Source: Ethanoligenens harbinense YUAN-3
GTDB lineage: Bacteria > Bacillota > Clostridia > Oscillospirales > Ethanoligenentaceae
Length of the DNA: 64,000 nt
Reading direction: 5' to 3'
NCBI RefSeq assembly: GCF_000178115.2
Contig: NC_014828.1
Span: forward strand, 2,015,310 to 2,079,309
In this document: positions 23,383 through 43,751 of the stretch, in pieces
Position numbering within the stretch: the stretch's first letter is position 1
Layout of the letters: the number at the start of each line of letters is the position of its first letter
Program-made: the position numbers and the translations under genes
Notes under the pieces: generated by a model
What the model was told of the DNA's origin: nothing
Databases searched by the model: none
Seen by the model: the letters and a program-made list of their open reading frames with translations, nothing else

Positions 23383-26300
23383 ATGCCGAGTAATGTGCAG
23401 GCTCTGGCACAAATGGCAGACCACGCGGCGACGCAGATCACCGCCAGTCATGAAAGCTGGACGGATTTTCTGAAAACCGCCGCCCGGCTCTACAAATATC
23501 CGTATCACGAGCAACTCATGATCTACGCCCAGCGCCCCGACGCGACTGCCTGCGCCGGGTATGAGCTTTGGAACGATAAAATGCGGCGGTATGTCCGGCG
23601 CGGCAGCAAGGGAATTGCGCTCATCGACGCTTCCGGAGACAGGCCGGGAATCCGGTATGTCTTTGACATTTCCGACACGGGCGGCAGGGAAAATTCCCGC
23701 CGCCCTTATCTTTGGCAGTACCGGCCGGAGCATGAAGACGCGGTTACGGCGGCGCTGGAACGGGAGTATGAGATTTCCGGCGAAAAGGGGCTTTCCGATC
23801 AGTTGGAGCAGATCGCCGGACAGTTGGCAAACGAATATTGGCAGGAGCATCAGTATGATATTCTCCACACCGTTGACGGCAGCTTTTTAGAGGAATATGA
23901 TGAGTTCAACATCGGAACGCAGTTCCGAAGCGCCGCAGCCGTCAGCATCACCTATGCGGTTTTGTCCCGCTGCGGACTGGAACCCGACGAATACTTTGAG
24001 CATGAGGATTTTCTGAGCATCTTCGATTTCAACACGCCCGATACCGTCGCCGCCCTCGGCTCGGCGGTCAGTGAGGCAAGCGAACGGGTGCTGCGGCAGA
24101 TCGAAGTCACCGTCAAAAATCAGGAACGCGAACATCTCGCGGAAAGGAGCGCCACACATGGAGAACAACCTGACTTACAGCCGGAACGGGGATTATCTGA
24201 TTCCCGATCTGACGATTACGGAGCAGACGGAGAGCATCGGCAAATACGGGAGGATGCGGAAAAATTACCTGAAAGAGCACCGGCCGGTGCTGTACAACAG
24301 CCTGCTGCTGTCGGAGCAACTATACCCGCACCTGTTGGAGATCGAGCGGACGGCGATGGCGCGGCTGGAACACATGATGCCGGAACTGATGAAATCGACG
24401 GGCATGACGGAAAACTTGAAAGCGTCCGACCCGATGCGCTGGGTGGGACTCATGAACGACCTGAAAGCGCAGGCCGAGGAAACGATTCTGACGGAGCTTA
24501 TCTACAGCTAAGTTTCTTCCCGTCGGAGCAGGAACAAATACAGCGAATCAACGAAGCGGAGAGCGAAAAGCCCTCCGCTTTTTCTGTGCCCGCGCCGCAA
24601 AAGCCGGAAAAGCGCAATACGGCCCAAGCCGACATTGACACCGCCCTTCAGGAGTGGAACGGCAGTATTGAAAGTAAACGCGCCGTTATCCGTTACATGC
24701 GGGAACATGCCCGAGACAAGGACACGGCGGCTTTTCTGCGTACCGAGTACGGTGACAATCTTCCGGCGTTTCCCGTAACCGTGGGACACACATCGACGGA
24801 TCTGCCTTGGTCGAAAGTGCAGCGGCGAATCGCCCAGCTCATCCGGGAAAATCGGTTTTACACGCAGGAAGAACAGCCCGCTCCGCCCGATCTGAGTGGC
24901 CAACCGATCACCCGCACCGGCGATACCATCGAGAACGGTATCACTTTCCATAATGTGGTCTTGACGCTTTCCGGCGCGCAAAGGGATGATACCCAGCGGA
25001 CGATTCCCGACAGCGCCGCAATTTTATATCCTTACAAGGTGGGCGACACGGTATATCTGGACAATAAGCCCTTTGAGATCACCGACATCGGTACTTCCGA
25101 CATCCAGCTCCGCGACCCTGCACTTGCCTATCCCATCTTTCGCGCCGAAAGCCGGGAGGACTTTGAAAGTTTGCTGCGGCAGGATTCCCGGAACGGTCCC
25201 ATCACGGAATTTCTGGCTGCGGACTTGGAGCACACGGACGCCGATCTGCGGGAAGCCCTGACCTCCGGCCTGCTGGAACAGCGGGACAAGGAACATATCG
25301 CGGGATATTTCCGCGAAAACGAGGGCAATACCCGCGTAGCCCAGCGCCTTTCCGAAACCTACGCCGGTACTTCCGATACGATGGAACTGACCACCGGCGA
25401 AACGGCGGATTTCTTTGCCACCACCACGGGTTTCGAGGTTGATATTCACGACAAATACAACAGCAAACGGAGCGCCCGGTGGGAAGAAATCTCTCCTATC
25501 CTCCGCGCTTTGTACCAGCATGAGCAGGACGGCTTTTCCCATGAGCCGGTTCTGCGGAAGCCTGCAAATCTGGAGGGCAAGCCATCCTATGAGGTTGGCG
25601 ATCACTCGGTGCTGGATTACGGCGGGCAGGAGCTGTCCGGCACCGTGGGATACGTCGGGGATAAGGATGTGCGCATCGACACCGGCCCCAATTCATGGAG
25701 CCATGAGGTTGTCAGCCGCGACGCCTTTGAAAACGGCATCCGGCGGGACGAACGCGACGCCTCTTTGTTTACATCAGAGCAGTCCACCGCCGAAAACTTC
25801 CGCATCACGGATGATCATTTGGGCGAGGGCGGCGCAAAAACCAAGTACGGCTTTAATATCGCGGCCATCTGCACCTTGAAACAGATTGAGGCCGAGGGCC
25901 GCACGGCGACGCCGGAGGAACAGGAAATCCTCTCCCGGTATGTCGGCTGGGGCGGCATCCCGCAGGCGTTTGACCCGAATAACGCCTCATGGTCAAAGGA
26001 ATATGCGGAGCTGATCGGCGCGCTGACCGCCGAGGAATACGAAATGGCGCGGGCCTCCACCCTGAACGCCCACTACACCAGCCCCACGGTGATTCGGGCT
26101 ATCTATGAAGCTGTCGGCAACATGGGCTTCCAGACCGGAAACATTCTGGAACCGGCCTGCGGCGTCGGCAACTTTTTCGGCCTGCTGCCGGAAAGCATGG
26201 CGGCGTCCCGGCTCTACGGCGTGGAGCTGGACAGCATCACGGGCCGGATCGCCAAACAGCTCTATCCCAACGCCAAGATCATCGTGGCGGGCTTTGAAAC

Positions 26301-29300
26301 CACCGACCGGAAAGACTTTTTCGATTTGGCCGTGGGCAACGTGCCGTTCGGCAGCTACAAGGTTTCCGACCGGGCCTATAACAAGCTCGGTTTCCCGATC
26401 CATGATTACTTTTTCGCCAAAACGCTCGATCAGGTGCGTCCGGGCGGCGTGATCGCATTTGTCACCAGCCGCTACACGATGGATAAACAGTCGCCGGAGG
26501 TGCGGCGGTACATTGCCCAGCGTGCGGATTTACTCGGCGCGATTCGTCTGCCCAGCGACGCTTTCAAGGCCAACGCCGGAACGGAAGTCACCACCGACAT
26601 CCTTTTTCTCCAAAAGCGCGACCGCCCCATCGACATTGAGCCGGATTGGGTGCATTTGGGCCAGACTGAGGACGGAATCCCCGTCAACAGCTATTTTGCC
26701 GATCATCCCGAAATGGTACTGGGAACCATCCAATGGGACGATAAGATGCACGGCGACAAAAAGGAAACGGCCTGCGAGCCGTTCCCCGACGCCAATCTCT
26801 CCGAACAGCTCCACGAGGCGGTTTCCCACCTTCAGGGGCAGATGGCTGAAGCGGAACTGCCCGATCTCGGTGAGAACGAGGAAATCGACGATTCCATCCC
26901 GGCAGACCCCAACGTAAAAAACTACTCCTATACCGTTGTGGACGGCAAGGTGTACTATCGGGAGAATTCCCGCATGGTGCGGCCGGAACTGAACGAAACA
27001 GCCAAGGCCCGCGTCATGGGCATGGTGGAACTGCGGGACTGTGTGCAGAAGCTCATCAGCCAGCAACTCGACGAATACGCTTCCGACGCGGAAATCCGAA
27101 ACACGCAAGCGGAATTGAATCGGCTCTACGACACTTTTTCCACAAAATACGGCCTGATTAACTCTCGCGGCAACAGTCTCGCGTTCTCGGAGGATTCCTC
27201 GTATTATCTGCTCTGTTCTTTGGAAGTGATCGACGAGGACGGCAAGCTGGAACGCAAGGCCGATATGTTTACCAAGCGCACCATCCGTCAGCGGAAAATC
27301 GTCACTTCCGTGGATACGGCATCAGAAGCTCTCTCGCTCTCCATCGCGGAAAAGGCGCTGGTAGACATGGACTACATGGCATCCCTCACCGGCAAGTCGC
27401 CGGAGGCGCTGGCCGACGAGCTGCGTGGCGTCATTTTCCGAGATTTGGGCGAACAGGACCCGGCAAGCGTTCCGAAAGCATTTTATAATCTGGAGAAAAT
27501 TCCGTTTGTCACCGCCGATGAATACCTGTCCGGCAACGTGCGCCGCAAGCTGCGGCTGGCCAAGGCTCTCGCGGAAATGCGGCCCGACCTCGCGGAGAAA
27601 ATATCTCCAAACATTGAGGCACTGGAGGCCGCCCAGCCGAAGGATCTTGACGCCTCGGAAATCGAGGTGCGCCTCGGCGCGACCTGGATCGACAAAGGGT
27701 ACATCCAGCAGTTCATGGTTGAGCTGCTCAACCCGCCGTCCGGTGTGCGCAACGGCATCCAGGTAAACTACTCCACATTTACAGCGGAATGGGCTATATC
27801 CAATAAAAACAGCGTCGGCTACAACAACGTGGCGGCTTACGTCACTTACGGCACCGACCGGGCCAACGCCTACCGGATTCTGGAGGACAGCCTAAATCTA
27901 CGGGACACGCGGATTTACGACACCGTGACCGACCCGGACGGCAAGGAGCGCCGCGTCCTCAATTCCAAGGAAACCACCCTCGCCCAGCAGAAGCAGCAGG
28001 CCATCAAGGACGCTTTCCGCGACTGGATCTGGAAAGACCCGGAACGGCGTCAGACCCTGACGAAAAAATACAACGAGCTGTTCAATTCCAGCCGCCCGCG
28101 TGAATACGACGGTCGGCATCTTGTATTCCCCGGCATGAATCCTGAAATCAAGCTGCGGGAGCATCAATTAAACGCCGTGGCGCACCAGCTTTACGGCGGC
28201 AACACCCTGCTGGCACACGTCGTGGGCGCGGGCAAAACCTACGAAATGATCGCCGCCGCAATGGAGGGCAAGCGGCTGGGGCTGTGCCAAAAATCCCTGT
28301 TCGCCGTTCCGAACCACCTGACGGAGCAGTGGGCCTCCGAATTTCTGCGGCTGTATCCTTCCGCGAATATCCTCGTCACCACCAAAAAGGATTTTGAAAA
28401 ACGCAACCGCAAAAAGTTCTGCGCCCGGATCGCCACCGGCGACTACGACGCGATCATCATGGGGCATTCGCAGTTTGAAAAAATCCCTGTCTCTCTGGAA
28501 CGCCAAAAAAGGCTTATTCAGGAGCAGATATGGGAAATTGAAAACGGGCTGGAAGAACTCAAAGGCAGTGGTGCGGAACAGTTTACCATCAAGCAGTTGG
28601 AGCGCACGAAAAAGGGCCTTGAGGCCCGGCTGAAGCGGCTCAACGACAACTCCCGCAAGGATGATGTCGTTACCTTTGAGCAGTTAGGCGTGGACCGCCT
28701 GTTCGTGGACGAGGCGCACAATTACAAAAACCTGTTTCTCTACACGAAAATGCGCAACGTGGCGGGCCTCTCCACCACCGATGCACAGAAGTCCAGCGAC
28801 ATGTTTCTGAAATGCCGGTATCTCGATGAGATCACGCACAGCCGGGGCGTCGTGTTCGCCACCGGAACGCCGGTTTCCAACAGTATGACGGAATTGTATA
28901 CGATGATGCGCTATCTCCAGTACGAAACCCTGAAAGATAGGAATCTCGTTCATTTCGACTGCTGGGCCTCGACGTTCGGGGAAACCGTAACGGCCATCGA
29001 ACTGGCCCCGGAGGGGACCGGCTACCGGGCGCGGACGCGCTTTGCCCGGTTCTACAATCTGCCGGAACTGATGACGCTGTTCAAGGAAGCGGCGGACATC
29101 AAGACAGCCGACCAGCTCAATCTTCCAACACCAAAAGCCGTATATCACAACGAAGTCGCGCAGCCCTCGGAGCTTCAGAAAGAAATGGTAAAAAAGCTCT
29201 CGGAGCGCGCCGCCGCCGTCCATTCCGGCGACATCGACCCGCATTTGGACAACATGCTCAAGATTACGTCGGACGGGCGCAAGCTCGGCCTCGATCAGCG

Positions 29301-30771
29301 CGTCATCAACCCCATGCTGCCCGACAATCCCAACAGCAAGGTCAATCTATGCGTCAACAACGTTTTCCGTTTCTGGCACGACGGGCAAGACAAAAAGCTG
29401 ACACAGCTCATTTTCTGTGATATTTCCACCCCGAAAGGCCGCGCCGCCGCCAAGGAAAACCGGGCGGTTCGGGCCGCTGGGAAACTCGCGGGCGACACGG
29501 AGCTTCACGCTTTGCAGGACGCCACACCGGAGGCCGACGCGCCGGAAGCGTTCAGCGTCTACTCGGACATCCGCGACAAGCTCATCGCGCGGGGCGTCCC
29601 CGCCGGTGAGATAGCGTTCATCCACGACGCCGACACCGAAGTAAAGAAAAAGGAACTGTTCGCCAAGGTGCGCGCCGGACAGGTGCGCGTCCTGATGGGC
29701 AGCACCGCCAAGATGGGGGCCGGGATGAACGTACAGGACCTTTTGATCGCCTCTCACGATTTGGACTGCCCGTGGCGTCCCGGTGATTTGGAGCAGCGGT
29801 CCGGGCGTATCATCCGGCAGTACAATACCAACCCCGAAGGACACATTTTCCGTTACGTCACCGAAGGGACATTTGACAGCTATTTGTGGCAAACCGTAGA
29901 GAATAAGCAGAAATTCATTTCGCAGATCATGACCAGCAAAAGCCCCGTCCGCTCCTGTGAGGACATCGATGAAACGGCGCTCTCTTATGCGGAAATCAAG
30001 GCCCTGTGCGCCGGGGACGAGCGGATCAAGGAGAAGATGGACCTCGATATGGACGTGGCCAAGCTGAAACTGATGAAAGCCAACCACCAGAGCCAGCAAT
30101 TCCGGCTGGAAGATAATCTGCTCAAATACTTCCCGGAGGAAATTGAGCGGAATAAAGGTTTCATCAAGGGTCTGGAAACGGATATGGCAACGCTGGAAGC
30201 GCACCCGCACCCGAAGGACGGCTTTGCCGGAATGGTGGTGCGCAGCGATTCTCTCACAGACAAGGACAACGCCGGAGCCGCTATTCTCGAAGCCTGCAAA
30301 GAAGTCAAGGGGCTGGAACCGATGGAGATCGGCAGTTACCGGGGCTTTACCATGTCACTGTCCGTGGAGGGGTTCGGACAGGATTTCATCCTCACCCTCA
30401 AAGGGCAAATGACTCACCGCGTCGCGCTGGGCAAGGACGCGCGCGGCAATCTCATTCGTATTGACAATGCCCTTTCCGATATGCCGAGGCGGTTGCAGAA
30501 TGTCCACGCCCAGCTTGATAATCTTCATTCGCAGATGGATGCGGCAAAGGCCGAGATCGGAAAGCCATTCCCGCAGGAAGCGGAGCTTGCGCAAAAGAGC
30601 GCCCGCCTCGCGGAGCTGAACGTCCTGCTGGACATCGATAGCCGCGCCCTCGCTCAGAGGCAGACATCGGAGGTTCTGGAGAAAAACGAAAGGCCCTCCT
30701 TACTGGAGAGCCTGAAGAAGCCCTGTATCTGCGGGACGGGTAAAAAACCGAAACATGAATTGGCCCGATAA
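23383..30771 (+). CDS. Giant DNA methylase-helicase of the conjugative element
   Basis: A 2462-residue cytoplasmic protein. The N-terminal 270 residues are ArdC-like (LYKYPYHEQLMIYAQRPDATACAGYELWN). Residues about 275-385 are low-complexity, rich in Gly, Ala, Asp, Glu and Arg, exactly where tnpV is encoded in another frame. An adenine-methylase region holds ILEPACGVGNFFG near 920 and DLAVGNVPFGSY near 981 (NVPF in place of NPPY). An SNF2-like helicase follows: HVVGAGKTYEM near 1615, VDEAHNY near 1775, VFATGTPVSNS near 1825 and QRSGRIIRQY near 2137. AAGGAGG precedes the ATG. Proteins of this plan are constant in Tn1549-like elements and may protect or remodel element DNA; the role is not proven. 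Confidence 0.9.
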   Translation: MPSNVQALAQMADHAATQITASHESWTDFLKTAARLYKYPYHEQLMIYAQRPDATACAGYELWNDKMRRYVRRGSKGIALIDASGDRPGIRYVFDISDTGGRENSRRPYLWQYRPEHEDAVTAALEREYEISGEKGLSDQLEQIAGQLANEYWQEHQYDILHTVDGSFLEEYDEFNIGTQFRSAAAVSITYAVLSRCGLEPDEYFEHEDFLSIFDFNTPDTVAALGSAVSEASERVLRQIEVTVKNQEREHLAERSATHGEQPDLQPERGLSDSRSDDYGADGEHRQIREDAEKLPERAPAGAVQQPAAVGATIPAPVGDRADGDGAAGTHDAGTDEIDGHDGKLESVRPDALGGTHERPESAGRGNDSDGAYLQLSFFPSEQEQIQRINEAESEKPSAFSVPAPQKPEKRNTAQADIDTALQEWNGSIESKRAVIRYMREHARDKDTAAFLRTEYGDNLPAFPVTVGHTSTDLPWSKVQRRIAQLIRENRFYTQEEQPAPPDLSGQPITRTGDTIENGITFHNVVLTLSGAQRDDTQRTIPDSAAILYPYKVGDTVYLDNKPFEITDIGTSDIQLRDPALAYPIFRAESREDFESLLRQDSRNGPITEFLAADLEHTDADLREALTSGLLEQRDKEHIAGYFRENEGNTRVAQRLSETYAGTSDTMELTTGETADFFATTTGFEVDIHDKYNSKRSARWEEISPILRALYQHEQDGFSHEPVLRKPANLEGKPSYEVGDHSVLDYGGQELSGTVGYVGDKDVRIDTGPNSWSHEVVSRDAFENGIRRDERDASLFTSEQSTAENFRITDDHLGEGGAKTKYGFNIAAICTLKQIEAEGRTATPEEQEILSRYVGWGGIPQAFDPNNASWSKEYAELIGALTAEEYEMARASTLNAHYTSPTVIRAIYEAVGNMGFQTGNILEPACGVGNFFGLLPESMAASRLYGVELDSITGRIAKQLYPNAKIIVAGFETTDRKDFFDLAVGNVPFGSYKVSDRAYNKLGFPIHDYFFAKTLDQVRPGGVIAFVTSRYTMDKQSPEVRRYIAQRADLLGAIRLPSDAFKANAGTEVTTDILFLQKRDRPIDIEPDWVHLGQTEDGIPVNSYFADHPEMVLGTIQWDDKMHGDKKETACEPFPDANLSEQLHEAVSHLQGQMAEAELPDLGENEEIDDSIPADPNVKNYSYTVVDGKVYYRENSRMVRPELNETAKARVMGMVELRDCVQKLISQQLDEYASDAEIRNTQAELNRLYDTFSTKYGLINSRGNSLAFSEDSSYYLLCSLEVIDEDGKLERKADMFTKRTIRQRKIVTSVDTASEALSLSIAEKALVDMDYMASLTGKSPEALADELRGVIFRDLGEQDPASVPKAFYNLEKIPFVTADEYLSGNVRRKLRLAKALAEMRPDLAEKISPNIEALEAAQPKDLDASEIEVRLGATWIDKGYIQQFMVELLNPPSGVRNGIQVNYSTFTAEWAISNKNSVGYNNVAAYVTYGTDRANAYRILEDSLNLRDTRIYDTVTDPDGKERRVLNSKETTLAQQKQQAIKDAFRDWIWKDPERRQTLTKKYNELFNSSRPREYDGRHLVFPGMNPEIKLREHQLNAVAHQLYGGNTLLAHVVGAGKTYEMIAAAMEGKRLGLCQKSLFAVPNHLTEQWASEFLRLYPSANILVTTKKDFEKRNRKKFCARIATGDYDAIIMGHSQFEKIPVSLERQKRLIQEQIWEIENGLEELKGSGAEQFTIKQLERTKKGLEARLKRLNDNSRKDDVVTFEQLGVDRLFVDEAHNYKNLFLYTKMRNVAGLSTTDAQKSSDMFLKCRYLDEITHSRGVVFATGTPVSNSMTELYTMMRYLQYETLKDRNLVHFDCWASTFGETVTAIELAPEGTGYRARTRFARFYNLPELMTLFKEAADIKTADQLNLPTPKAVYHNEVAQPSELQKEMVKKLSERAAAVHSGDIDPHLDNMLKITSDGRKLGLDQRVINPMLPDNPNSKVNLCVNNVFRFWHDGQDKKLTQLIFCDISTPKGRAAAKENRAVRAAGKLAGDTELHALQDATPEADAPEAFSVYSDIRDKLIARGVPAGEIAFIHDADTEVKKKELFAKVRAGQVRVLMGSTAKMGAGMNVQDLLIASHDLDCPWRPGDLEQRSGRIIRQYNTNPEGHIFRYVTEGTFDSYLWQTVENKQKFISQIMTSKSPVRSCEDIDETALSYAEIKALCAGDERIKEKMDLDMDVAKLKLMKANHQSQQFRLEDNLLKYFPEEIERNKGFIKGLETDMATLEAHPHPKDGFAGMVVRSDSLTDKDNAGAAILEACKEVKGLEPMEIGSYRGFTMSLSVEGFGQDFILTLKGQMTHRVALGKDARGNLIRIDNALSDMPRRLQNVHAQLDNLHSQMDAAKAEIGKPFPQEAELAQKSARLAELNVLLDIDSRALAQRQTSEVLEKNERPSLLESLKKPCICGTGKKPKHELAR
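24158..24511 (+). CDS. tnpV: TnpV-like protein nested in the methylase-helicase gene
   Basis: A 117-residue protein in a different frame of the same strand as the giant gene. GGAAAGGAGC precedes its ATG. The sequence (LTYSRNGDYLIPDLTITE, GKYGRMRKNYLKEHRPVLYNSLLLSEQLYPHLLEIERTA) is an ordered, TnpV-like protein, whereas the overlapped part of the giant frame is low-complexity. This indicates that tnpV is the older or more constrained frame here. TnpV function is unknown. Confidence 0.82.
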   Translation: MENNLTYSRNGDYLIPDLTITEQTESIGKYGRMRKNYLKEHRPVLYNSLLLSEQLYPHLLEIERTAMARLEHMMPELMKSTGMTENLKASDPMRWVGLMNDLKAQAEETILTELIYS

Positions 30772-32353: not shown

Positions 32354-32644
32354 ATGAGGCTGATACTGAAAATACTCGTCGCTCCGGTCATCGTGGTCCT
32401 GACCGTTTTCGTCTGGATCTGCTCCGCTCTACTGTACTGCTCGGCGTGGGTATTCGGCCTCGCGGGAACGGTCCTCGGCATCTTCGGTGTGCTGGCGCTG
32501 ATTACCCATCAGGTTACAAACGGGATCATCCTGCTGGTGATGGCGTTCCTCGTCAGTCCGTTCGGAATCCCGATGGCGGCGGCGTGGCTGATCGGCAAGA
32601 TACAGGATTTGCGGTACGCAATTCAGGATCGGGTTTACGGCTGA
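32354..32644 (+). CDS. CD1845-family membrane protein
   Basis: A 96-residue, very hydrophobic protein (MRLILKILVAPVIVVLTVFVWICSALLYCSAWVFG, then GIILLVMAFLVSPFGIPMAAAWLIGKIQDLRYAI) with two or three membrane segments, matching the CD1845 family. AAAGGGGGC precedes the ATG. It normally stands next to the relaxase gene in this element type. Function unknown; possibly surface or entry exclusion (speculative). Confidence 0.8.
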   Translation: MRLILKILVAPVIVVLTVFVWICSALLYCSAWVFGLAGTVLGIFGVLALITHQVTNGIILLVMAFLVSPFGIPMAAAWLIGKIQDLRYAIQDRVYG

Positions 32645-32708
32645 AAAGATCACTTAAGTATCTAAGTATAAACATTTTGCGAAGTACAAACAGTGTACCA
32701 GCTTCATT

Positions 32709-34301
32709 TTATAGTGGCATTGACTCGAAACAAATCGCAGGTATTTTGAACGTAAAATCCCCATACTTTATGACTTGGTATGTTATTGATGCATCCTCGG
32801 GCAGGGATTCCTCGTATTCGTGGTTACGGATAGCATGGAACACACTGCTAATTGGTTTGCTCGAAAATAATTCCTTCAGCTTTTTCAAGTCAATTACAGG
32901 GATGTATTTATGCTGGGTCCTAATATTATGCCTTGCAACCACACAACAAAATAAATCAATTTTGTCACCATCGTCAACGTCAAACACTTGCTTAATAAAC
33001 CGTTTCCGATCACTCATGGCATACGTCATAATTGATTCAGATTGTTTACAGCCGTGAGTAACCTCATCTTCTCGAGCATATACCTCCTTTGAGGAATCCG
33101 CGGCAGCAAACCACTTAAGTTCACATAGCAAAGCAGCGTTTGAGGCTGCATCCAACAGTCCAAAATCCACATCAGGCAAGCGCCCACCAAGGTTTTTGTG
33201 CTTTGTGAGTTTTAGAGTAGTTGCACGAGGGATAGCAGCCTCTATTTCCTGTACCATCAAATCTTCTAAATCATTTACCTCTTTTGAGTGCTCCGAATCG
33301 CTTCTTGAACTTACAACTGCAAGTAGATTCCGTTCCGGGCGGGAGCCAAGAAATAACATAGGGGCGATGATTGTTAATTCATTACTAAGCACGGTTATCG
33401 GCTGATACATGATATCTACATTACGCTTGGACGGTTCAAAAGTAATGTATTTCACAATACTCTCGACCGATTCTTTTTTCAATCCGCTTATCGATACAAT
33501 ATAGTCTACTATCTTGCTTATTGTCAGAATTATTGTGCTATTTCGCAATCTGATTAACGGGTCTTTTATTGTAATGCAGCTGAGAAAATGTATGTAACAA
33601 AGTGCTGCGATACATGTCCATGCTTGCCGGTAGTCATCTAGTGTAAACAGGTCAAACTTCCATGAGTCGGGCAAGGTTTTTGAAGAATTCCATTGATCGT
33701 TTGCAATTTCAAGAAATGGATCTATTATTTCGTTTGTTAATTCGTAACACAGGCATCCGTCCTCAATGCGAACTCTTTTTTGTAATTCTGCATTAGCCTT
33801 TGCTATCTTTACCGGATTAATACAATCCATGAAACTGCCGAGTGTAGACTGGCTTGCTTCTCTGAGAATATCGCTCCACGCAGAATTATTGTGATCCGCC
33901 GGAAAATCAAAAGTAACTGTGTTGTCATCAACTTTGGCTAATAACCGTTTCCTTGAAAATGAAATATAGCCACTACATATCACTGAGTACGGATACGCAT
34001 AATTAGTAAGTAGAGAAACACACTGATTGTATCTCTCTTCAGAAATGTCGGTAGCAATTTGCACGGTTGCAGTGGGTAAGTCACTTTTCTCAACCCAATA
34101 CAATGCCTGGTTTAACGCATCCATATGATCTGTTATCTTTCTTAGAGCCAATGGATTCAACATGCTGCTCATTACCGAGAGAGAGCACAGGTCTTCAAAA
34201 GCAGACAACAATTCATATGTCACCTGTTCTTTCGTTCCGGAAAAAGCAGGGTGCCTCTTATGTAAATTATCAATGACGTTTTCGATTTCACGGATATCCA
34301 T
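32709..34301 (-). CDS. PD-(D/E)XK-like protein of unknown family, putative defence nuclease
   Basis: A 530-residue protein with no family I recognise. The first 370 residues are mainly helical. Near residues 372-396 lies LPDVDFGLLDAAS followed by ALLCELKWF, a good fit to a PD-(D/E)XK nuclease core (Asp, then E-x-K after a hydrophobic strand). GAGG precedes the ATG closely. The gene is AT-rich, runs against the transfer genes and follows an Abi_C gene on the same strand with a 166-base gap, so the two form a likely two-gene cassette. Phage defence is inferred from the pairing and the motif. Confidence 0.6.
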   Translation of the reverse strand: MDIREIENVIDNLHKRHPAFSGTKEQVTYELLSAFEDLCSLSVMSSMLNPLALRKITDHMDALNQALYWVEKSDLPTATVQIATDISEERYNQCVSLLTNYAYPYSVICSGYISFSRKRLLAKVDDNTVTFDFPADHNNSAWSDILREASQSTLGSFMDCINPVKIAKANAELQKRVRIEDGCLCYELTNEIIDPFLEIANDQWNSSKTLPDSWKFDLFTLDDYRQAWTCIAALCYIHFLSCITIKDPLIRLRNSTIILTISKIVDYIVSISGLKKESVESIVKYITFEPSKRNVDIMYQPITVLSNELTIIAPMLFLGSRPERNLLAVVSSRSDSEHSKEVNDLEDLMVQEIEAAIPRATTLKLTKHKNLGGRLPDVDFGLLDAASNAALLCELKWFAAADSSKEVYAREDEVTHGCKQSESIMTYAMSDRKRFIKQVFDVDDGDKIDLFCCVVARHNIRTQHKYIPVIDLKKLKELFSSKPISSVFHAIRNHEYEESLPEDASITYQVIKYGDFTFKIPAICFESMPL

Positions 34302-34467
34302 TTTTCCTCTTTTCCCCCAAGTTGGCTACTCAAAAATGACAGAACACTTAAAGCCAAAGCCATAATACCACAAATTTCTGTTTATCAAGCTGCGTGTTAT
34401 TGCTACAATCGGTTGGTCCGTCATAAACAAACTACGAACTCAGGACACTGATGTTATTGTAAAGTTA

Positions 34468-35226
34468 TTACATTTCGAGTTTATGTATGAGAGTAAGAGT
34501 TGCCGTAACTATTGTAACTACATATTCAGCTTCAGCTTTATCCAACACCTCGTTATCATGAGCGTAGCTCTTGTCGTTCCTGATTGTATTATATTTTTCA
34601 AATGTAGATATACTCATTTTCAAAGCCTGATTGGCAAACTCAGACTCAAACACTTTATTCTCTTTATAGTACTTTGCAAGTGCCCCAACCAAGCTATGAA
34701 TCGGGTAATTTTCCCCGGTATTATCAGAAACAGGAATTCCATGCTTCAAACAAATAGTTCTGAAGAATTTAGTTGAGTATGTGTGTAACCTATCAAGTAC
34801 CAAAGTCGGTTCATTTCTACTAAGTGCCTCATAAATATCTCTTGATAATATTTCAAACGATTCACCATGTTCTTCCGGAAGGATTATTTCAAAATCATCA
34901 TCAGAAATAATATAGTCTATATTTCTTATAAGATATCCTGTTGTACTCGGTCTTAGTAGTTTTTGTATCGCGTCTTTCAATACTTGGTCCTTTGGCTTTA
35001 AAAAATCAATATTACTTTGCGATCCTTCAAAAGTAAAATCCAAAGCCTTTTTATCCCAATTATCGCCCTTTAATCCTGCATAATATGCCAGCCCCTTATC
35101 TTCATACTCAATTTTGCAATGCCGAAGTACCTGTGCTATATCACTGCTTCTATTTTGTTGTAAGAATCGCACCAATTTCTCATGAAAGTTGTCAGGAACT
35201 TCATAAGTGAAGTCATACTGTCCCAT
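34468..35226 (-). CDS. Abi_C-domain (abortive infection-like) protein
   Basis: A 252-residue cytoplasmic protein. The C-terminal half (LDRLHTYSTKFFRTICLKHGIP, PIHSLVGALAKYY, ALKMSISTFEKYNTIRNDKSYAHDNEVLDKAEA) matches the abortive-infection C-terminal domain (PF14355), whose R-N-x4-H motif recalls HEPN-type RNases. The N-terminal half is unassigned. It is transcribed on the minus strand from a clear promoter at 35406-35434, leaving a long 5' leader. It is probably the first gene of a two-gene defence cassette with the PD-(D/E)XK-like gene. Confidence 0.75.
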   Translation of the reverse strand: MGQYDFTYEVPDNFHEKLVRFLQQNRSSDIAQVLRHCKIEYEDKGLAYYAGLKGDNWDKKALDFTFEGSQSNIDFLKPKDQVLKDAIQKLLRPSTTGYLIRNIDYIISDDDFEIILPEEHGESFEILSRDIYEALSRNEPTLVLDRLHTYSTKFFRTICLKHGIPVSDNTGENYPIHSLVGALAKYYKENKVFESEFANQALKMSISTFEKYNTIRNDKSYAHDNEVLDKAEAEYVVTIVTATLTLIHKLEM

Positions 35227-35405
35227 GTTTTCACCCCATATATATTTATCTCAACAAATCCCTGCTTGTCGGAATATGTATTATTGCTGTAACAGGTTTG
35301 TTCGCCATAAACAAATATTGTCTATGGCGACTTCGCATAATGCTATTATCTACAAAGCCTCAATCCCAATGGTTACTCATTTTTATTCGGCAAATTATTA
35401 CATAT

Positions 35406-35434
35406 ATTATAGCAAATTAAATCGCAATTTGTAA
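35406..35434 (-). promoter_or_regulatory. Promoter of the Abi_C cassette
   Basis: On the minus strand TTACAA (35429-35434) and TATAAT (35406-35411) are 17 bases apart in very AT-rich DNA. It leaves about 170 bases of leader before the Abi_C start. Confidence 0.65.
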
Positions 35435-35510
35435 GTCATCCACATGTTTTGCTTGAAAAACAGTTTGAGAAGCTTCATAGCTTTCTTTTCATTTTATGGG
35501 GGGAATGTTT

Positions 35511-36917
35511 ATGGCAACGACGCGGCTGATGCCGCTGCATACCGGCAAGGGCCGGGATGTCGGAACGGCAATCAGCGATATTATTGATTACGCAGAAAAC
35601 CCGAAGAAAACGGATTACGGAAGGCTTATTACTGGCTTTGAATGCGACAGCCGGACAGCCGATGCCGAGTTCCTTTTTTCCAAACGGCAGTATGCCGCGC
35701 TCACCGGCAGGACGCGCGGCGCGGACGATGTGATCGCCTACCATCTCCGGCAGTCTTTTATTCCCGGCGAGGTCACGCCGGAGGAAGCAAACCGGATCGG
35801 CGGTGAGCTTGCCAAACGCTTTACAAACGGGAACCATGCTTTCATTGTCTGCACCCACATTGACAAACACCACATTCACAATCATATCATTTGGAATTCC
35901 ACATCCCTCGACTGTACCCGGAAATTCCGAAACTTTTGGGGCAGTACAAGAGCCGTGCGGCGGCTGAATGATACGCTGTGTATTGAGAACGGGTTGTCTA
36001 TCGTGGAAAATCCGAAGCGGCGCGGCAAGAGCTACAACAAGTGGCTGGGCGATCAGGCAAAGCCCTCCAACCGGGAATTTTTGCGTGTGGCAATAGACGC
36101 ATCTCTTGCCCAGAAGCCTGCCGATTTCGACGCGCTCCTGAAGCTCTTGCGGGATGCCGGATATGAAGTCAAACCGGGGAAAATTCCCGCCCTGCGCGGA
36201 AAAAATCAAAAGCGGTTTATCCGGTTGGATACGCTGGGCAGCGGCTACAGTGAAGCGGAACTTCGGGCCGTCCTCTCCGGCAAAAAAGCACACACTCCGC
36301 GCAAAAAAATCATCCGGCCCACGTCGGAAAAACAAGTCGATCTGCTGGTGGATATTCAGGCCAAGCTCCGCGCAGGAAAAGGCGCCGGTTACGAGCGCTG
36401 GGCCAAGGTGTTCAACCTCAAGCAGATGGCGCAGACAGTGAACTATCTGACCGAGCACAATCTGCTGGGGTACGATGCGCTGGCCGCTAAAACGGCTTTG
36501 GCAACCGCCCGGTACAATGAGCTTTCCACACAAATCAAAGCGGCTGAAAAACGGATGGCCGAGATCGCCGTTTTGAAAACACAGATCATCAATTACGCCA
36601 AGACCCGCGACACCTATGTTGCCTACCGCAAGGCGGGGTATTCAAAAAAGTTCCTTTCGGAGCATGAGAGCGACATTCTTCTGCACAAGGCGGCGAAGGA
36701 ATCATTCGACGAACTGGGCGTGAAAAAGCTTCCTACTGTCAAGAGCTTACAGGCCGAATATGCGGCGCTTCTGGCAGAGAAAAAAGCGGCTTACGCTGAC
36801 TATCGCAAGGCCCGCGACGAAATGAAAGAGCTGTTGACCGTGAAAGCAAACGCCGATCATCTGCTTGGCCCCGACAGTCGCGAGGCGGAGAAAGAAAAAG
36901 GGACTGTTGCAAAATAG
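35511..36917 (+). CDS. MOBP-type relaxase, 3' end replaced by a mobile repeat
   Basis: A 468-residue relaxase. MATTRLMPLHTGKGRDVGTAISDIIDYAENPKKT at the N-terminus and HAFIVCTHIDKHHIHNHIIWNS near residues 112-132 (the HxxxHxH-type metal site of MOBP relaxases) identify it. ATG at 35511 follows GGGGGGAA. A long coiled-coil region fills the C-terminal 200 residues. The last codons and the stop (GTVAK) come from the 150-bp repeat that begins at 36900, so the native C-terminus has been lost, probably by only a few residues. It nicks oriT and leads the strand into the recipient. Confidence 0.92.
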   Translation: MATTRLMPLHTGKGRDVGTAISDIIDYAENPKKTDYGRLITGFECDSRTADAEFLFSKRQYAALTGRTRGADDVIAYHLRQSFIPGEVTPEEANRIGGELAKRFTNGNHAFIVCTHIDKHHIHNHIIWNSTSLDCTRKFRNFWGSTRAVRRLNDTLCIENGLSIVENPKRRGKSYNKWLGDQAKPSNREFLRVAIDASLAQKPADFDALLKLLRDAGYEVKPGKIPALRGKNQKRFIRLDTLGSGYSEAELRAVLSGKKAHTPRKKIIRPTSEKQVDLLVDIQAKLRAGKGAGYERWAKVFNLKQMAQTVNYLTEHNLLGYDALAAKTALATARYNELSTQIKAAEKRMAEIAVLKTQIINYAKTRDTYVAYRKAGYSKKFLSEHESDILLHKAAKESFDELGVKKLPTVKSLQAEYAALLAEKKAAYADYRKARDEMKELLTVKANADHLLGPDSREAEKEKGTVAK

Positions 36918-37661: not shown

Positions 37662-38471
37662 ATGAGCCTGCAAGTACGGTGTTTCAACCGTGGGCAAATA
37701 GAAGCACTGAGTAAGGCTCTTGGCGATTATATGACTGGAAGCGAAATTACAAAACTTCTTTGCCAATGCGAAATTGAAGATAATAGTAATCAATCTACAA
37801 AATGGCGTCGGTTGGACTATAGTTTTATTGAACGTCAAAATCAAGATCAATCCCCAAATGCGATTCTTCGTTTTGTCAAAGAAGCTCTACAGCCCGTACT
37901 TTTTATGAATGAAAAAGAAAAGTACGAAGAATTTCGGATAGATGTAAATCAAGTATTACTTACTGCCGGATTAGAAGTACAAAGAGATGGCTCTCTGAAA
38001 TTCACTACTGTCGCGACAACCATTGATGAAGTGAAGCGTAGAACACAGAATTTGGAACGTAGTTTACGTCAGAGGAATGTGCATGAATGTGTTCTGAAAT
38101 ACTGCAAGGAAGAATTACTCCAAGAAAACTACTTTCACGCTGTGTTCGAAGCAGCAAAGAGCTTATCCGATCGGATCAGGGAAATGACTTCATTATCTTC
38201 GGATGGGTACAAATTGTTTGATGAAGCATTCAAAATCAACTCTCCATATTTGGCAATTAATAAACTGCAAACAAGTAGTGAACAAAATCAGCAGAATGGG
38301 CTTCATCAAATGTTAAGTGGTATAACCTCCATGGTCAGAAATGTAACTGCCCATGAGCCAAAAATCAAGTGGATCATTAATGAAAATGATGCTGTAGATA
38401 TTCTCTGCACAATTTCTTTTCTACATAAACAACTCGACCAGTGTATTATTGTGCCACACTTTAATCCATAA
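37662..38471 (+). CDS. TIGR02391 (Ymh)-family protein
   Basis: A 269-residue protein. The C-terminal half (VLKYCKEELLQENYFHAVFEAAKSLSDRIREMT, then LFDEAFKIN and GLHQMLSGITSMVRNVTAHEP) matches the TIGR02391/Ymh domain, often found beside restriction and other defence genes. The R-N-x3-H element (VRNVTAHEP) recalls HEPN-like proteins. The N-terminal half is unassigned. GTGGAGGG precedes the ATG. It is the first structural gene of the island. Function unknown; an accessory defence role is inferred from context. Confidence 0.78.
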   Translation: MSLQVRCFNRGQIEALSKALGDYMTGSEITKLLCQCEIEDNSNQSTKWRRLDYSFIERQNQDQSPNAILRFVKEALQPVLFMNEKEKYEEFRIDVNQVLLTAGLEVQRDGSLKFTTVATTIDEVKRRTQNLERSLRQRNVHECVLKYCKEELLQENYFHAVFEAAKSLSDRIREMTSLSSDGYKLFDEAFKINSPYLAINKLQTSSEQNQQNGLHQMLSGITSMVRNVTAHEPKIKWIINENDAVDILCTISFLHKQLDQCIIVPHFNP

Positions 38472-38569
38472 GCATGCAGCCAGATAATTGGATATGAGCA
38501 TATGGTTCAACATAAACAAACATGGGGACAATTTCACGGAAGAGAATTAATTATGGAGGTCAAAATGCT

Positions 38570-40105
38570 ATGACGCAAGCCAAGAGACAATTCGTTGAGA
38601 ATTATATTAACTCTTTGTCAAATGCAGTTGATACCTATAACAATTCTGAACCATATGCAACTAATCAAGTTGAAGATGATTTGTTTGACACAATTATTGA
38701 AATCCGAAATGTGTTTTCGAAAGAGATTCCGAATATAGAAGATGTTGTTTTGCTTAAAAACGGTACAGGTCTTCGTGATGCGAATTCAGTGCTTGGAATT
38801 TTGAGATTATATTTAGTAAATGAAGATGATCATACAAATGCGAAAATTCCATTGATCACCGACAAGAAAAAAGGAGGAAAAATATTTATCAGCCACAGGA
38901 GCACTGATAAGAAGATTGCTGATATTATTGAAAATTTTTTAACTTCTTGCGGTATTTCATACAGTAATATTTTTTGTTCGTCACTACCGGGAAATGATAT
39001 TGAAGAAAAAATATCTTTGGAAGTTAAAGAAAATATGAAAGCAAGCGTACTGAACATTGCTTTGTTATCCGTTGATTATTATCAAAGCGTATATTGTCAA
39101 AATGAGGCAGGAATCATTTGGTTCCTTGATACCGAAAAAATAGTGATAGCATTACCTGAAATTGATGACAGTCTCATGGAAGGATTCCTGAATAGCGAGT
39201 ACAAAATAAGGCGACTTAGCAATAAGAGCGATATTTCCGCGATATGTGATATTGTAAAGAAGTTTTTCCCTGATTTTGTATCTTCAAATGCCAAACTCAA
39301 TGCCAACATTGATCACCTGATTGAACAATATGACAGCGTTATTAAAGCAAGAAAAATAGAGCCTTCAGCTATACCAAGTGAAACCAACGTGTTAGAGAAA
39401 AGAATTTTGTCAAATGAATTTTCTGATGGAGAGTTGTTTGTCCTTAATTACTTCTATGATACTCAAACCAATTCTATAAGCGACGATTTTAAACAAATAA
39501 ATGACTGGATTCAAAAAAAGAAAGTTACAATATCAGTGAAAGAAGCATTTGATGTATTAATAGACGATGAAATCATTATATTTATCGACGGAGGATTTAC
39601 ACACGCCAGTACATATAATATGGAAATTAATACTTATAGGGAACTAAGGAAGTTGTCACAAAAAGCCGTTGATATCTTTGAAAAGAATTGCACACGACAT
39701 AAAGCAGTAACAACTTTAATAAAAAGCGGGAACACTGTTGACAATTTGATAATCAAAGGCTTTTCAGAGCCCGAAATTTTGCTTGTTAAGTACATAATCG
39801 ATTTGCAGAGGGAAAAATTGTACGCAGGCTGGCAAAGTGATCAAGAAATTAAAATGATTCGGAATTGGGAAGAAATTAACACTTTAAACGATACCCTTTC
39901 TCAAAATTATATCGATGTGCTTTCAAAGTTTGAGATAAGGAAATTTATTGAGCCTTGTGCAAAGACTTCGTATGGCAACACAAAAGAGTATAAATTAATA
40001 GATAGTTTTTTGGAAAGTCTAAACGGACTGAGTCAGTCGGCATTGGATAAGATACAGTCAACAATGGATGAAAATCAATTTACTGAACCAGAATTGCCGT
40101 TTTGA
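38570..40105 (+). CDS. TIR-domain protein in the type III restriction island
   Basis: A 511-residue protein. The TIR domain spans residues 100-230: GGKIFISHRSTDKKIADIIENFL at its start and SVDYYQSVYCQNEAGIIWFLDT, whose glutamate near residue 178 is in the place of the NADase catalytic Glu. Residues 1-95 form a helical region; residues 270-511 are helical and unassigned, perhaps a sensor. ATG at 38570 follows TGGAGGT; the ATG at 38565 stops at once. Its stop lies 18 bases before the mod start, and a TTG of the mod frame overlaps it. Bacterial TIR proteins deplete NAD+ upon phage sensing; such a role here is inferred. Confidence 0.8.
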   Translation: MTQAKRQFVENYINSLSNAVDTYNNSEPYATNQVEDDLFDTIIEIRNVFSKEIPNIEDVVLLKNGTGLRDANSVLGILRLYLVNEDDHTNAKIPLITDKKKGGKIFISHRSTDKKIADIIENFLTSCGISYSNIFCSSLPGNDIEEKISLEVKENMKASVLNIALLSVDYYQSVYCQNEAGIIWFLDTEKIVIALPEIDDSLMEGFLNSEYKIRRLSNKSDISAICDIVKKFFPDFVSSNAKLNANIDHLIEQYDSVIKARKIEPSAIPSETNVLEKRILSNEFSDGELFVLNYFYDTQTNSISDDFKQINDWIQKKKVTISVKEAFDVLIDDEIIIFIDGGFTHASTYNMEINTYRELRKLSQKAVDIFEKNCTRHKAVTTLIKSGNTVDNLIIKGFSEPEILLVKYIIDLQREKLYAGWQSDQEIKMIRNWEEINTLNDTLSQNYIDVLSKFEIRKFIEPCAKTSYGNTKEYKLIDSFLESLNGLSQSALDKIQSTMDENQFTEPELPF

Positions 40106-40122
40106 TGATGGAGGGAGAAGAA

Positions 40123-42003
40123 ATGCCTGAAATACTGGATGGGATGAGCATGAATCTTGAAAAATCTAACATGGACAAGTTAAAAGCAGCATTTCCAGAA
40201 TGCTTTGCCGAAGGTAAGCTGGATATTGACAAGCTACTGTCGTTGTGTGGCGAGTATATCGACAATGATTTTGAAAAATACAAATTTGAGTGGAAGGGTA
40301 AGGCAGAGTGCTTGAAGCTGGCACAAAAACGTTCCACTGGTACGCTACGCCCATGCCCGGAGGAAAGTGTCAATTGGGACACGACGCAGAACCTTTACAT
40401 AGAAGGCGATAATTTGGAAGTTCTAAAGCTCTTGCAGACTTCCTACTACCGCAAGGTCAAGATGATTTATATCGACCCGCCCTACAACACCGGCAATGAC
40501 TTTGTCTATGCAGATGATTTTGCCGACCCAATGGCGCGGTATAAGGAAGTCACGCAACAGACTACCAAGTCAAACCCTGAGACTATGGGACGTTTCCACA
40601 CCAACTGGCTTAACATGATGTACCCCCGTCTTCGTCTTGCTGCAAACCTTCTGCGGGACGATGGTGTGATTTTTATAAGTATTGATGATGGTGAGCAAAC
40701 AAACCTCAGAAAACTATGCGATGAGGTATTCGGTGAAGAAAATTTTATTGCACAGATAATTTGGCAGAAAGTATATAGCCCTCGCATGGATGTTCAAGGT
40801 TTTTCAGTATCACACGACTATATACTTTGTTATGTGAAGCAGAGTTTTGACAGCATACATAAAGAAACTTTCGCTCAAAATAGTGCACAGTTTAATTTCG
40901 TCGATCAACAAAGCGGGCAAAAATATCGACGTAGGAGTGTCCGAAAAGAAGGAAGCCATTCAACAAGAAGCGAACGTCCAAATTTGTGGTTCCCCCTTAT
41001 GGCTCCGGATGGAACAGAGGTGTATCCTGTAAAGCCAGATGGCACCGAAGGCTGCTGGAGATGGAGTAAAGGCACTTATATAGAAAACCAATCAAAAGGA
41101 ATTGTTGAGTGGGTTCAAACAGAAAATGGTTGGCAAGTATACGCTAAGCAATATCTTAAAGAGGAAGCTACAAAACCGCCCGAAACTTTATGGTTTCATC
41201 AAGAAGTAGGTCATAATCATGCCGCAATGGAGGAATTAAAGAAATTATTAGGAGCTAAAGTTTTTGATAGTCCAAAGCCTAAGAATCTTATAGAAAAAAT
41301 GCTTAGAATTGCTACAACTGGTGATGAAGATATTATACTCGATTTCTTTTCAGGTTCGGCTACAACGGCCCATGCAGTTATGCAGCTTAATGCAGAAGAC
41401 GGAGGCAACCGTCGTTTTATTCTTGTGCAACTTCCCGAAGTATGCGACGAGAACAGCGAAGCCTATAAAGCCGGTTATAAGAACATCTGCGAAGTCGGCA
41501 AAGAGCGTATTCGCCGTGCGGGAAGGAAACTGACCGAAACCGATGGTCAAATGCAACTTGGCGAGGATGACAAGGAACCGTTGGATATTGGCTTCCGGGT
41601 GTATAAACTGGACTCTTCAAACCTGAAGACTTGGGATGATACACCAATTGAAGACAATCAGCTCAACATTCTATACAAACGCATGAATGGCATGATCCAC
41701 CGAGTGAAGTACGATCGGTCCGAGATGGATATGGTCTGTGAAATTATGCTAAAGCTTGGTGCGCCCTTGACTTGTCCAGTCTCTAAAATTGAGATAAACA
41801 GCAAATCTGCCTACACTGTAGGTGAGGACTGCACGCTGCTCATCTGCTTAGCTGAGAATATTCAGCCTTCCGATGTGGAGGCAATCGCTGAATATGCTGC
41901 GGCAATAGTCGTCATTGCCCGCGACAGCTTCGCCGACGATACAGCTATGGCAAATGCCTACTATATATTGCGAGATAAAGGCATAGAACTGAAACTGGTG
42001 TAA
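40123..42003 (+). CDS. mod: Type III restriction-modification methyltransferase (Mod)
   Basis: A 626-residue adenine methyltransferase of the beta class: MIYIDPPYNTGNDFVYADDF (DPPY, near residue 117) comes before DIILDFFSGSATTAHAVMQLN (near 405), with the target-recognition region between. ATG at 40123 follows GGAGGGAG. It methylates the recognition site and guides the Res subunit. The target sequence cannot be read from the protein. It is followed by an ImmA/PIN pair before res, which splits the usual mod-res order. Confidence 0.95.
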   Translation: MPEILDGMSMNLEKSNMDKLKAAFPECFAEGKLDIDKLLSLCGEYIDNDFEKYKFEWKGKAECLKLAQKRSTGTLRPCPEESVNWDTTQNLYIEGDNLEVLKLLQTSYYRKVKMIYIDPPYNTGNDFVYADDFADPMARYKEVTQQTTKSNPETMGRFHTNWLNMMYPRLRLAANLLRDDGVIFISIDDGEQTNLRKLCDEVFGEENFIAQIIWQKVYSPRMDVQGFSVSHDYILCYVKQSFDSIHKETFAQNSAQFNFVDQQSGQKYRRRSVRKEGSHSTRSERPNLWFPLMAPDGTEVYPVKPDGTEGCWRWSKGTYIENQSKGIVEWVQTENGWQVYAKQYLKEEATKPPETLWFHQEVGHNHAAMEELKKLLGAKVFDSPKPKNLIEKMLRIATTGDEDIILDFFSGSATTAHAVMQLNAEDGGNRRFILVQLPEVCDENSEAYKAGYKNICEVGKERIRRAGRKLTETDGQMQLGEDDKEPLDIGFRVYKLDSSNLKTWDDTPIEDNQLNILYKRMNGMIHRVKYDRSEMDMVCEIMLKLGAPLTCPVSKIEINSKSAYTVGEDCTLLICLAENIQPSDVEAIAEYAAAIVVIARDSFADDTAMANAYYILRDKGIELKLV

Positions 42004-42036
42004 ATACACCTATATAGTTAAGGGGGAGATGATTTT

Positions 42037-43242
42037 GTGGCGATATTAAAAGCTTTAATAAACAAGGAAACTCTTAGGATGATCTGTGAAACAAAGCGAG
42101 TTGAAGTTTCTTATATTGCAGATAAAATCAGTTGCAAGCCAACTTCAAAAGTTGATGGATGGCTTAATCTTACCTCGGAAACTCTGCCGACTTTTAATCA
42201 GGCAAAAAAAATTGCATCTTGCTTGCATATTCCTTTTGCCGGATTATATATGAAACCCGAAGATGTTCCAAAAAAGCAGCTCCCTAAAATTGTTAATCGT
42301 CGCGTTCTTCTCAACGAATTTAGTCCAAACGAAAGTTCTTTAAATATAGCTATATCAGATTTACTTGAAACCCGTGACCTACTAATTTCCATAAAGCAAG
42401 AGTTAAAAGAGCCTACTTCCTCCTTTAATGTTGCGATTGATACAAATACGACTGATGTGGCAGTAGCTTTGGCAATTCGAAAATTCTTTGAGATTAGTCT
42501 AGAGGAGCAATTCAGAAAGTCATCTGCCCGCCAGTTTTATTTATATGTGCGCCAGCAGATTGAGGCAAAAGGTGTATTCATCCAATGTTTTACGGATGTC
42601 GATTTGGAGACAGCTCGGGGATTGGCCATTTTTGATGACGTCATACCCATCATTGGAATCAATGAGAAAGATCGTCCACCGGCAAAGACATTTTCTATTA
42701 TCCATGAACTGGTTCATTTGTTAAAACGTCAGTCATCGCTATGCAATGAATTTGTAAGTGCATTTTCTAAGAACGCCGAGGAAATATTTTGCAATGCTGT
42801 TGCAGGCGAATTGCTTGTACCAAGAGATGCATTGTTTGCTAAACTGCATAGCAGGAACCTGTCTTCGAACTTTGCAATTTCTGATATTCAAAACTTAGCA
42901 AATGATTTTTCAGTAAGCAAAGAAGTTATTTCCAGGAGGTTGCTTGACAATGGGGTCATTAATGAAGTGGAATATACTGCTTATAATGACGAATTTCGAA
43001 AGCTAATAGAAACTGAAAAAGAAGAACAGCGAATAGCTCGATCCGAAGGGCGTGCACCAACGATACCAAAATATCCCGATAGAGAAGCAATTGACCGAAC
43101 AAGTTCAAGCCTATGTCGTTCTTTGTTCAAGGGCTATACCGAAGACGTTTTCAGCAAACAAGATGTGTCACGCTATCTTGGAATCAGCCAAAAGTATGCG
43201 GACAAATTTCTTGGGGAGGTGTCGAAATGGTACGTCAGATGA
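42037..43242 (+). CDS. ImmA/IrrE-type metallopeptidase with N-terminal helix-turn-helix
   Basis: A 401-residue protein, GTG start behind GGGGGAG. Residues 1-70 look like an XRE-type helix-turn-helix (VEVSYIADKISCKPTSKVDGWLNL, LPTFNQAKKIASCLHIP). The ImmA/IrrE peptidase core is TFSIIHELVHLLKRQSS (HExxH near residue 224) with NAEEIFCNAVAGELLVP holding the third ligand. It overlaps the DUF4411 gene by 16 bases. XRE-COG2856 proteins paired with a PIN-like partner are predicted toxin-antitoxin modules; the peptidase would act on the regulator or antitoxin. Confidence 0.88.
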   Translation: MAILKALINKETLRMICETKRVEVSYIADKISCKPTSKVDGWLNLTSETLPTFNQAKKIASCLHIPFAGLYMKPEDVPKKQLPKIVNRRVLLNEFSPNESSLNIAISDLLETRDLLISIKQELKEPTSSFNVAIDTNTTDVAVALAIRKFFEISLEEQFRKSSARQFYLYVRQQIEAKGVFIQCFTDVDLETARGLAIFDDVIPIIGINEKDRPPAKTFSIIHELVHLLKRQSSLCNEFVSAFSKNAEEIFCNAVAGELLVPRDALFAKLHSRNLSSNFAISDIQNLANDFSVSKEVISRRLLDNGVINEVEYTAYNDEFRKLIETEKEEQRIARSEGRAPTIPKYPDREAIDRTSSSLCRSLFKGYTEDVFSKQDVSRYLGISQKYADKFLGEVSKWYVR

Positions 43243-43715: not shown

Positions 43716-43751
43716 TATGCTTTGATACTGTCTAAGAAAAGTTGGGGTTAT

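Follow-up and report, generated by a model that had tools for sequence, protein, structure and literature searches.

We analysed a window of 64,000 nucleotides from Ethanoligenens harbinense YUAN-3, in which a conjugative element carries two genes in the interval from its DUF5699 gene to its relaxase gene. One encodes a protein of 530 residues, here called p530, and the other an Abi_C family protein. The features of this region are as follows.

32354 to 32644, plus strand: DUF5699 protein, left border of the slot (PF18956, E = 7.8e-25)
32645 to 35495, no strand: cargo slot from DUF5699 to relaxase (comparison of gap length and contents across 20 related stretches)
32684 to 32698, no strand: inverted repeat GTACA...TGTAC, with counterparts at 9094-9109 of L008 and 8230-8244 of L009 (sequence comparison)
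32709 to 34301, minus strand: p530 (tentatively "mini-Upx"), 530 amino acids (open reading frame, homologue alignment, models, fold matches and residue conservation)
34302 to 34367, minus strand: conserved leader of p530, 66 bp of which remain in the window (comparison with the leaders of L002, L003, L008 and L009)
34468 to 35226, minus strand: Abi_C family protein, 252 amino acids, predicted HEPN-type RNase (PF14355 and motif conservation)
35406 to 35435, minus strand: best promoter-like site upstream of the Abi_C gene (CTTACA-18-TATAAT, with TG before the second hexamer)
35496 to 36917, plus strand: relaxase, right border of the slot (PF03432, E = 3e-33)

A preliminary description had placed two AT-rich genes, opposed to the conjugation genes, between a "CD1845-like" gene (its name for the DUF5699 protein) and the relaxase, and this arrangement was borne out: both genes are on the minus strand, with GC contents of 40% (p530) and 35% (Abi_C), whereas the relaxase gene has 54% and the large gene at 23383-30771 has 57%. 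The host genome, a single 3.0-Mb contig, contains one match each for p530 and the Abi_C protein. The same description credited the pair with a consensus promoter of its own. The site at 35435-35406, upstream of the Abi_C gene, does agree with the consensus at 10 of 12 positions, but such sites are no commoner in the region than chance would give (12 observed, 9.8 ± 3.5 expected). Given the 166 bp between the two genes and the conserved leader that p530 has to itself, a shared transcript is not established. To the right of the relaxase lies a second defence block (37662-46880), comprising a PD-Lambda-3_B/Hypoth_Ymh protein, an SpbK-like TIR protein, a type III methylase and a type III restriction subunit, the last two separated by an IrrE-type peptidase-domain protein; PADLOC recognized PD-Lambda-3_B, SpbK-like and type III restriction-modification components here.

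The interval occupied by the two genes was surveyed by way of the relaxase, which was matched in 38 of 245 genomes of the order. From these we chose 20 matches, mostly the best scoring (some genomes appear twice, and one match is a second copy in the host's own genome), and compared the stretch 5′ of each. A DUF5699 gene was present in 11 of the 20, separated from the relaxase by 851 to 2785 bp (2852 bp in the window); the remaining nine, some of which end at a contig end, had none in the DNA examined and are counted neither way. Ten cargo proteins from 7 of the 11 stretches were scanned against Pfam. AbiEii was matched in L084 and L087, and AbiEi in L087 (and below the cut-offs in L081); L082 carries a YhcG PDDEXK nuclease, L085 a Schlafen AlbA_2 protein and L087 also a SLOG match below the cut-off, while the non-defence cargo consists of a sigma factor in L083 and a GGDEF protein in L079. 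The 228-residue gene ahead of AbiEii in L084 matched no Pfam family, the cargo of L088 is the same as that of L087, and a truly empty slot was not seen among the stretches compared. Because the contents of the gap differ among related stretches, the DUF5699-relaxase interval is a variable cargo site, often but not always holding defence or toxin genes, and the earlier notion of a hotspot beside the relaxase stands. The interval is directly minable for such genes in these conjugative elements.

The Abi_C protein is an ordinary member of its family. It matches PF14355 with an E value of 3.5e-11 and 43.5 bits (Pfam cut-off, 24). An alignment of 18 Abi_C proteins (from 13 other genomes, three phage or plasmid stretches, L008 and the window; 11 to 68% identical to the window's) is invariant at R216, N217 and H223 only. 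Its assignment to Abi_C and the three residues had been recognized previously; the spacing, given then as R-N-x4-H, is in fact R-N-x5-H. In HEPN RNases, the arginine of an R-x4-6-H motif is followed by a polar residue, and we take the invariant R-N-x5-H of Abi_C to be the pattern expected of such an active site. With all three residues present (as in 18 of 18 proteins), the window protein is predicted from its sequence to be a HEPN-type RNase. The gene of a full-length relative with 68.5% identity precedes that of the terminase large subunit in Ruminococcus phage NatCom_2329. Two Abi_C proteins used as queries against viral contigs found no match.

p530 had been described as unrecognized, and so it proved: Pfam, PADLOC and NCBIfam gave no family match at an E value of 1, and PHROG gave one match (E = 0.04) over 33 residues. 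Full-length relatives number 2 in viral contigs and 8 in the genome contigs of 84,980 species (L009 and L013 among them). Within the class, 1 other genome of 391 was found (the contig of L013), and within the order, the host's own genome only (345 genomes); a search of the phylum (398 genomes) added one fragment (L006) and one chance match (L007), phage-labelled records gave one broken copy (L004), and plasmid records gave no match. Scanning the viral contigs again with p530 alignments turned up no locus beyond the two already found there, and L015 as the query matched none. These searches draw on overlapping samples and their counts are not independent frequencies, but the family looks rare; most of its records carry labels such as Clostridia, Lachnospiraceae and Ruminococcus. 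In total, the gene was found in 10 independent loci, counting the window, with differing neighbours. The L007 gene reads by eye as a signalling kinase and was rejected, as was the broken L004 copy. L006, from the same phylum, holds a p530 relic (64 residues matched, at about 1500-1708) between two insertion-sequence-like genes.

The alignment on which our further analysis was based leaves out L004, L006 and L007, as well as L009, whose reading frame is broken. It contains 11 rows, of which 10 are distinct because L005 and L013, both included, come from the same contig (as does L048). Identity to p530 ranges from 33% to 95%, and all 10 distinct proteins, p530 included, are about 522 to 546 residues long with a conserved start. 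The ratio dN/dS was 0.15 against L002, 0.24 against L008 and 0.14 against L003, which argues that the protein is maintained by purifying selection. Weak Pfam matches within the family (HARP, inorganic pyrophosphatase and others) were scattered and below cut-offs, as was a TnsA_C match at residues 393-457 of the L012 protein (E = 4.3e-4); we regard all of these either as chance matches or as a reflection of the nuclease fold.

An AlphaFold model of p530, made with the 11-row alignment, had a mean pLDDT of 83.9 and a pTM of 0.80. The C-terminal third of this model forms an α-β-β-β-α-β core, made up of helix 336-356, strands 363-369, 378-384 and 389-396, helix 404-430 and strand 449-456. D377, D379, E394, K396 and Q420 do not vary across the 11 rows (10 distinct), the spacing from D to E-x-K is constant, and invariant columns are most numerous in the block from 391 to 420 (15 of 30). 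Thus, the PD...ExK core suggested near residues 372 to 396 was found both in the modelled fold and as the conserved D377 and E394-x-K396, and the profile searches and structure prediction proposed as a check gave no family match but a predicted fold that contains this core. A PD-(D/E)XK nuclease core in p530 is supported by the model and by the conserved residues. The protein as a whole would consist of a helical N-terminal part, possibly a winged-helix middle part and the C-terminal nuclease; residues about 210 to 324 aligned weakly (Z, 3 to 5) with a variety of proteins, and the titles of many of these name a winged helix or DNA binding.

When the model was compared with the PDB using Foldseek, the sole match with an E value of 0.001 or better was Upx (PDB 9wuf; E = 8.2e-6, probability 1.00). 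VIA-align superimposed 381 residues of the two (model 1-487 on chain 767-1272; Z = 10.6, rmsd 5.9). Since one domain can carry a match of a whole model, residues 1-334 were also folded alone (pLDDT 79.9). Upx again ranked first by VIA-align, with a Z of 13.3 over 241 residues (chain 767-1113, rmsd 4.4) and the next match at 5.3, although such high Z scores are commoner with helical models; Foldseek gave no match for this part at an E value of 0.001 or better, and Upx was absent among the best 50 of 120 matches. Sequence and profile searches of the PDB with whole p530, its nuclease part, its N-terminal part and L015 gave a best E value of 0.2 and never Upx. PADLOC searched at an E value of 10 returned nothing for the 11 rows, the presence of an Upx model in that copy being unconfirmed, and a library of viral protein structures gave no match to p530 at 0.001 or better. 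The link between p530 and Upx is one of predicted fold: the superimposed residues are about 13% identical, and there is no match at the level of sequence.

Upx is a single-gene PD-(D/E)XK phage-defence protein of over 1,200 residues. The name is said to go back to Gao et al. in 2020. In p530, which has 530 residues, the predicted N-terminal and nuclease parts are collinear with residues 767-1272 of Upx and in the same order, whereas the residues before about 767 (entry numbering) have no counterpart; p530 is thus not a large chain with some 760 residues ahead of this module, as Upx is. Upx is listed as a defence system in Pseudomonas (PMC12629846, PMC10855318), and short relatives are not mentioned where these two papers treat Upx; our literature search found no paper on its structure or mechanism.

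The nuclease part of p530 also resembles the cleavage domains of FokI (Z = 9.8) and of nicking endonucleases (Nt.BspD6I, 8.9 to 9.0), as well as Cdn1/Can2 (7 to 9) and McrBC. For FokI and Nt.BspD6I, however, the well-fitting alignment is confined to p530 residues about 335 to 499, the N-terminal part of p530 differs, and p530 has no recurring methylase partner. The catalytic motif of FokI is D-x-K, in place of which p530 has E-x-K. Shedu (SduA), another single-gene nuclease, likewise has its PD-(D/E)XK domain towards the C terminus, but the match is weak and limited to the nuclease part (Z = 6.9); p530 and its relatives matched nothing above the cut-offs in Pfam or PADLOC, the presence of Shedu models there being unconfirmed.

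The DNA around the p530 copies bears on how the gene travels. Similarity between the window and L003 or L008 covers little more than the leader and the gene, from 34367 to 32707 and 32702, respectively; L002 stops at a contig end, which sets the downstream limit of its similarity. The leaders of L002, L003, L008 and L009 have 73 to 95 bp in common pairwise, and that of L009 (the copy in Caproicibacter) has 89 bp more than the window retains at 34302..34367. Judged by these comparisons of sequence, p530 moves as one gene together with its leader. Downstream of the stop codon, a 36-bp stretch that includes the inverted repeat is common to the window, L009 and L008 (a scan of viral contigs with its L008 form found no copy), and L010 and L011 have a hairpin-like stretch in common at this place.

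As had been anticipated, defence genes lie near several p530 homologues. By PADLOC, GajA and GajB precede p530 in L008 (where an Avs3a-like protein follows it) and in L013, HamB and LmuB precede it in L002, an AbiLi-like ATPase (together with a STAND match below the cut-off) is close by in L011, and a REase_II/SpbK-type protein in L012. L003 has a PDDEXK_4 nuclease nearby, and L014 a DUF4379 protein and an AAA_15 ATPase; the single neighbour scanned in L015 matched no Pfam family. These neighbours thus include Gabija twice, Hachiman/Lamassu, AbiL-like and TIR or restriction-type genes. A PADLOC-recognized defence protein occurs in the examined flank of 6 of the 10 independent loci, a count that is only suggestive, since the neighbours scanned (10 with PADLOC, 20 with Pfam) were picked for closeness or a defence-like look and there is no background control. 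L003, L010, L014 and L015 were outside the PADLOC scan, and no neighbour in L010 was scanned in any library. An all-against-all comparison of 106 proteins from the 10 loci (E = 1e-4) found, besides p530, GajA common to L008 and L013 (24% identity), the serine recombinases and a small ORF common to L003 and L010, Abi_C to L008 and the window, and a TIR-type match to L012 and the window. A partner in trans that provides the missing half of Upx was considered and rejected, as no neighbour protein occurred in more than 2 of the 10 loci.

We favour, with a probability of roughly 0.7, the view that the slot holds two independent single-gene anti-phage modules, p530 being a stand-alone, Upx-like PD-(D/E)XK nuclease that matches the C-terminal 500 or so residues of Upx, and the Abi_C protein a separate HEPN-type RNase. 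Binding and sensing of foreign or phage-processed DNA is the most likely task of the N-terminal part of p530, and would license the C-terminal domain for metal-ion-dependent DNA cutting. Because p530 lacks a recurring methylase or motor partner in most loci, the nuclease would presumably be restrained by its own fold. The Abi_C protein most likely halts the infected cell through RNA cutting. DNA cleavage by p530, its trigger and phage protection are what we infer; the computed basis is fold similarity, conservation of catalytic residues, purifying selection, mobility of the leader and gene, and defence neighbours in several loci.

The preliminary description had instead proposed one two-gene abortive infection system, in which the nuclease would sense or cut phage DNA and the HEPN RNase would kill the cell. 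The two genes are indeed adjacent on the same strand, similarly AT-rich and together again in L009 (a Caproicibacter copy of the same element), and these are the only places where p530 adjoins Abi_C; a further Abi_C gene in L008 (2011-2814, E = 3e-20) lies about 4.6 kb from p530, with GajA and GajB between. This is the only Abi_C gene among the nine other independent p530 loci: the flanks examined in the other eight (from none, downstream in the one-sided L002, to 8 kb, and short in L010, L013 and L015) contain none. In the opposite direction, a class search matched Abi_C in 14 of 274 genomes, the host's own included, and none of the 13 other Abi_C genes has p530 within 8 kb to either side, or within the shorter flank where the contig ends sooner, nor do one phage stretch and two plasmid stretches with Abi_C contain it (L017 to L019, taken from 1 and 143 matching records). 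The gap of 166 bp and a leader that travels with p530 also count against a joint unit. Within the limits of these data, the co-occurrence counts in both directions would make the pair one juxtaposition rather than a system, and p530 and the Abi_C gene are probably two unrelated, independent cargo genes. We therefore consider the two-gene system very unlikely; the broader expectation that p530 homologues keep company with Abi_C or other defence genes largely failed for Abi_C and held for defence genes in several loci.

It could also be argued that p530 is an accessory subunit of an adjoining large defence system (Gabija, Lamassu or Hachiman) that has become stranded in the window, given that in L008 and L013, two distinct Gabija loci, it comes directly after GajB (in the latter, the GajB gene runs to 2267 and that of p530 begins at 2306). 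GajA, however, is common to these two loci only, and the all-against-all comparison found no match to GajA or GajB in any other, which makes this origin distinctly improbable. Somewhat less improbable, though still unlikely, is a role of the nuclease in element biology (DNA transfer, maintenance or competition between elements) rather than phage defence. p530 does sit on a conjugative element here, and its neighbours include serine recombinases at L003 and L010 and, at L013, an integrase-like gene (each named by eye), but it is no constant part of any single element type, several of its loci have defence systems next to it, and its slot is filled in some relatives by other defence or toxin genes, though also by a sigma factor and a GGDEF protein.

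Within the reading of p530 as an independent nuclease, one further possibility, which we hold tentatively and at slightly less than even odds, is that it corresponds to the smallest Upx unit able to work on its own: an immune protein that is mobile as one gene, in essence a sensor-nuclease of about 500 residues, of which full-length Upx would be an elaboration with a large accessory N-terminal half and "mini-Upx" a second branch. If so, the profile libraries searched are missing a compact family of single-gene defence nucleases, and a natural "half-Upx" would allow experiments to assign phage sensing and cutting to separate parts of Upx.

Several observations on individual loci may be recorded here. 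In L009 (5613-8219, Caproicibacter fermentans EA1), single-base differences disrupt the reading frames of both cargo genes, whereas that of the relaxase is open; the assembly being a draft, sequencing error and decay are indistinguishable. L008 contains a 295-bp direct repeat (636-930 and 9193-9487, 90% identical) over a small ORF, which brackets the block of Abi_C, GajA, GajB and p530 and is followed by the Avs3a-like gene; this repeat may be a mark of how defence blocks are exchanged. Finally, L003 (769-4315) and L010 (3020-6568) contain related pairs of large serine recombinases, again so named by eye, which suggests another carrier element for p530.
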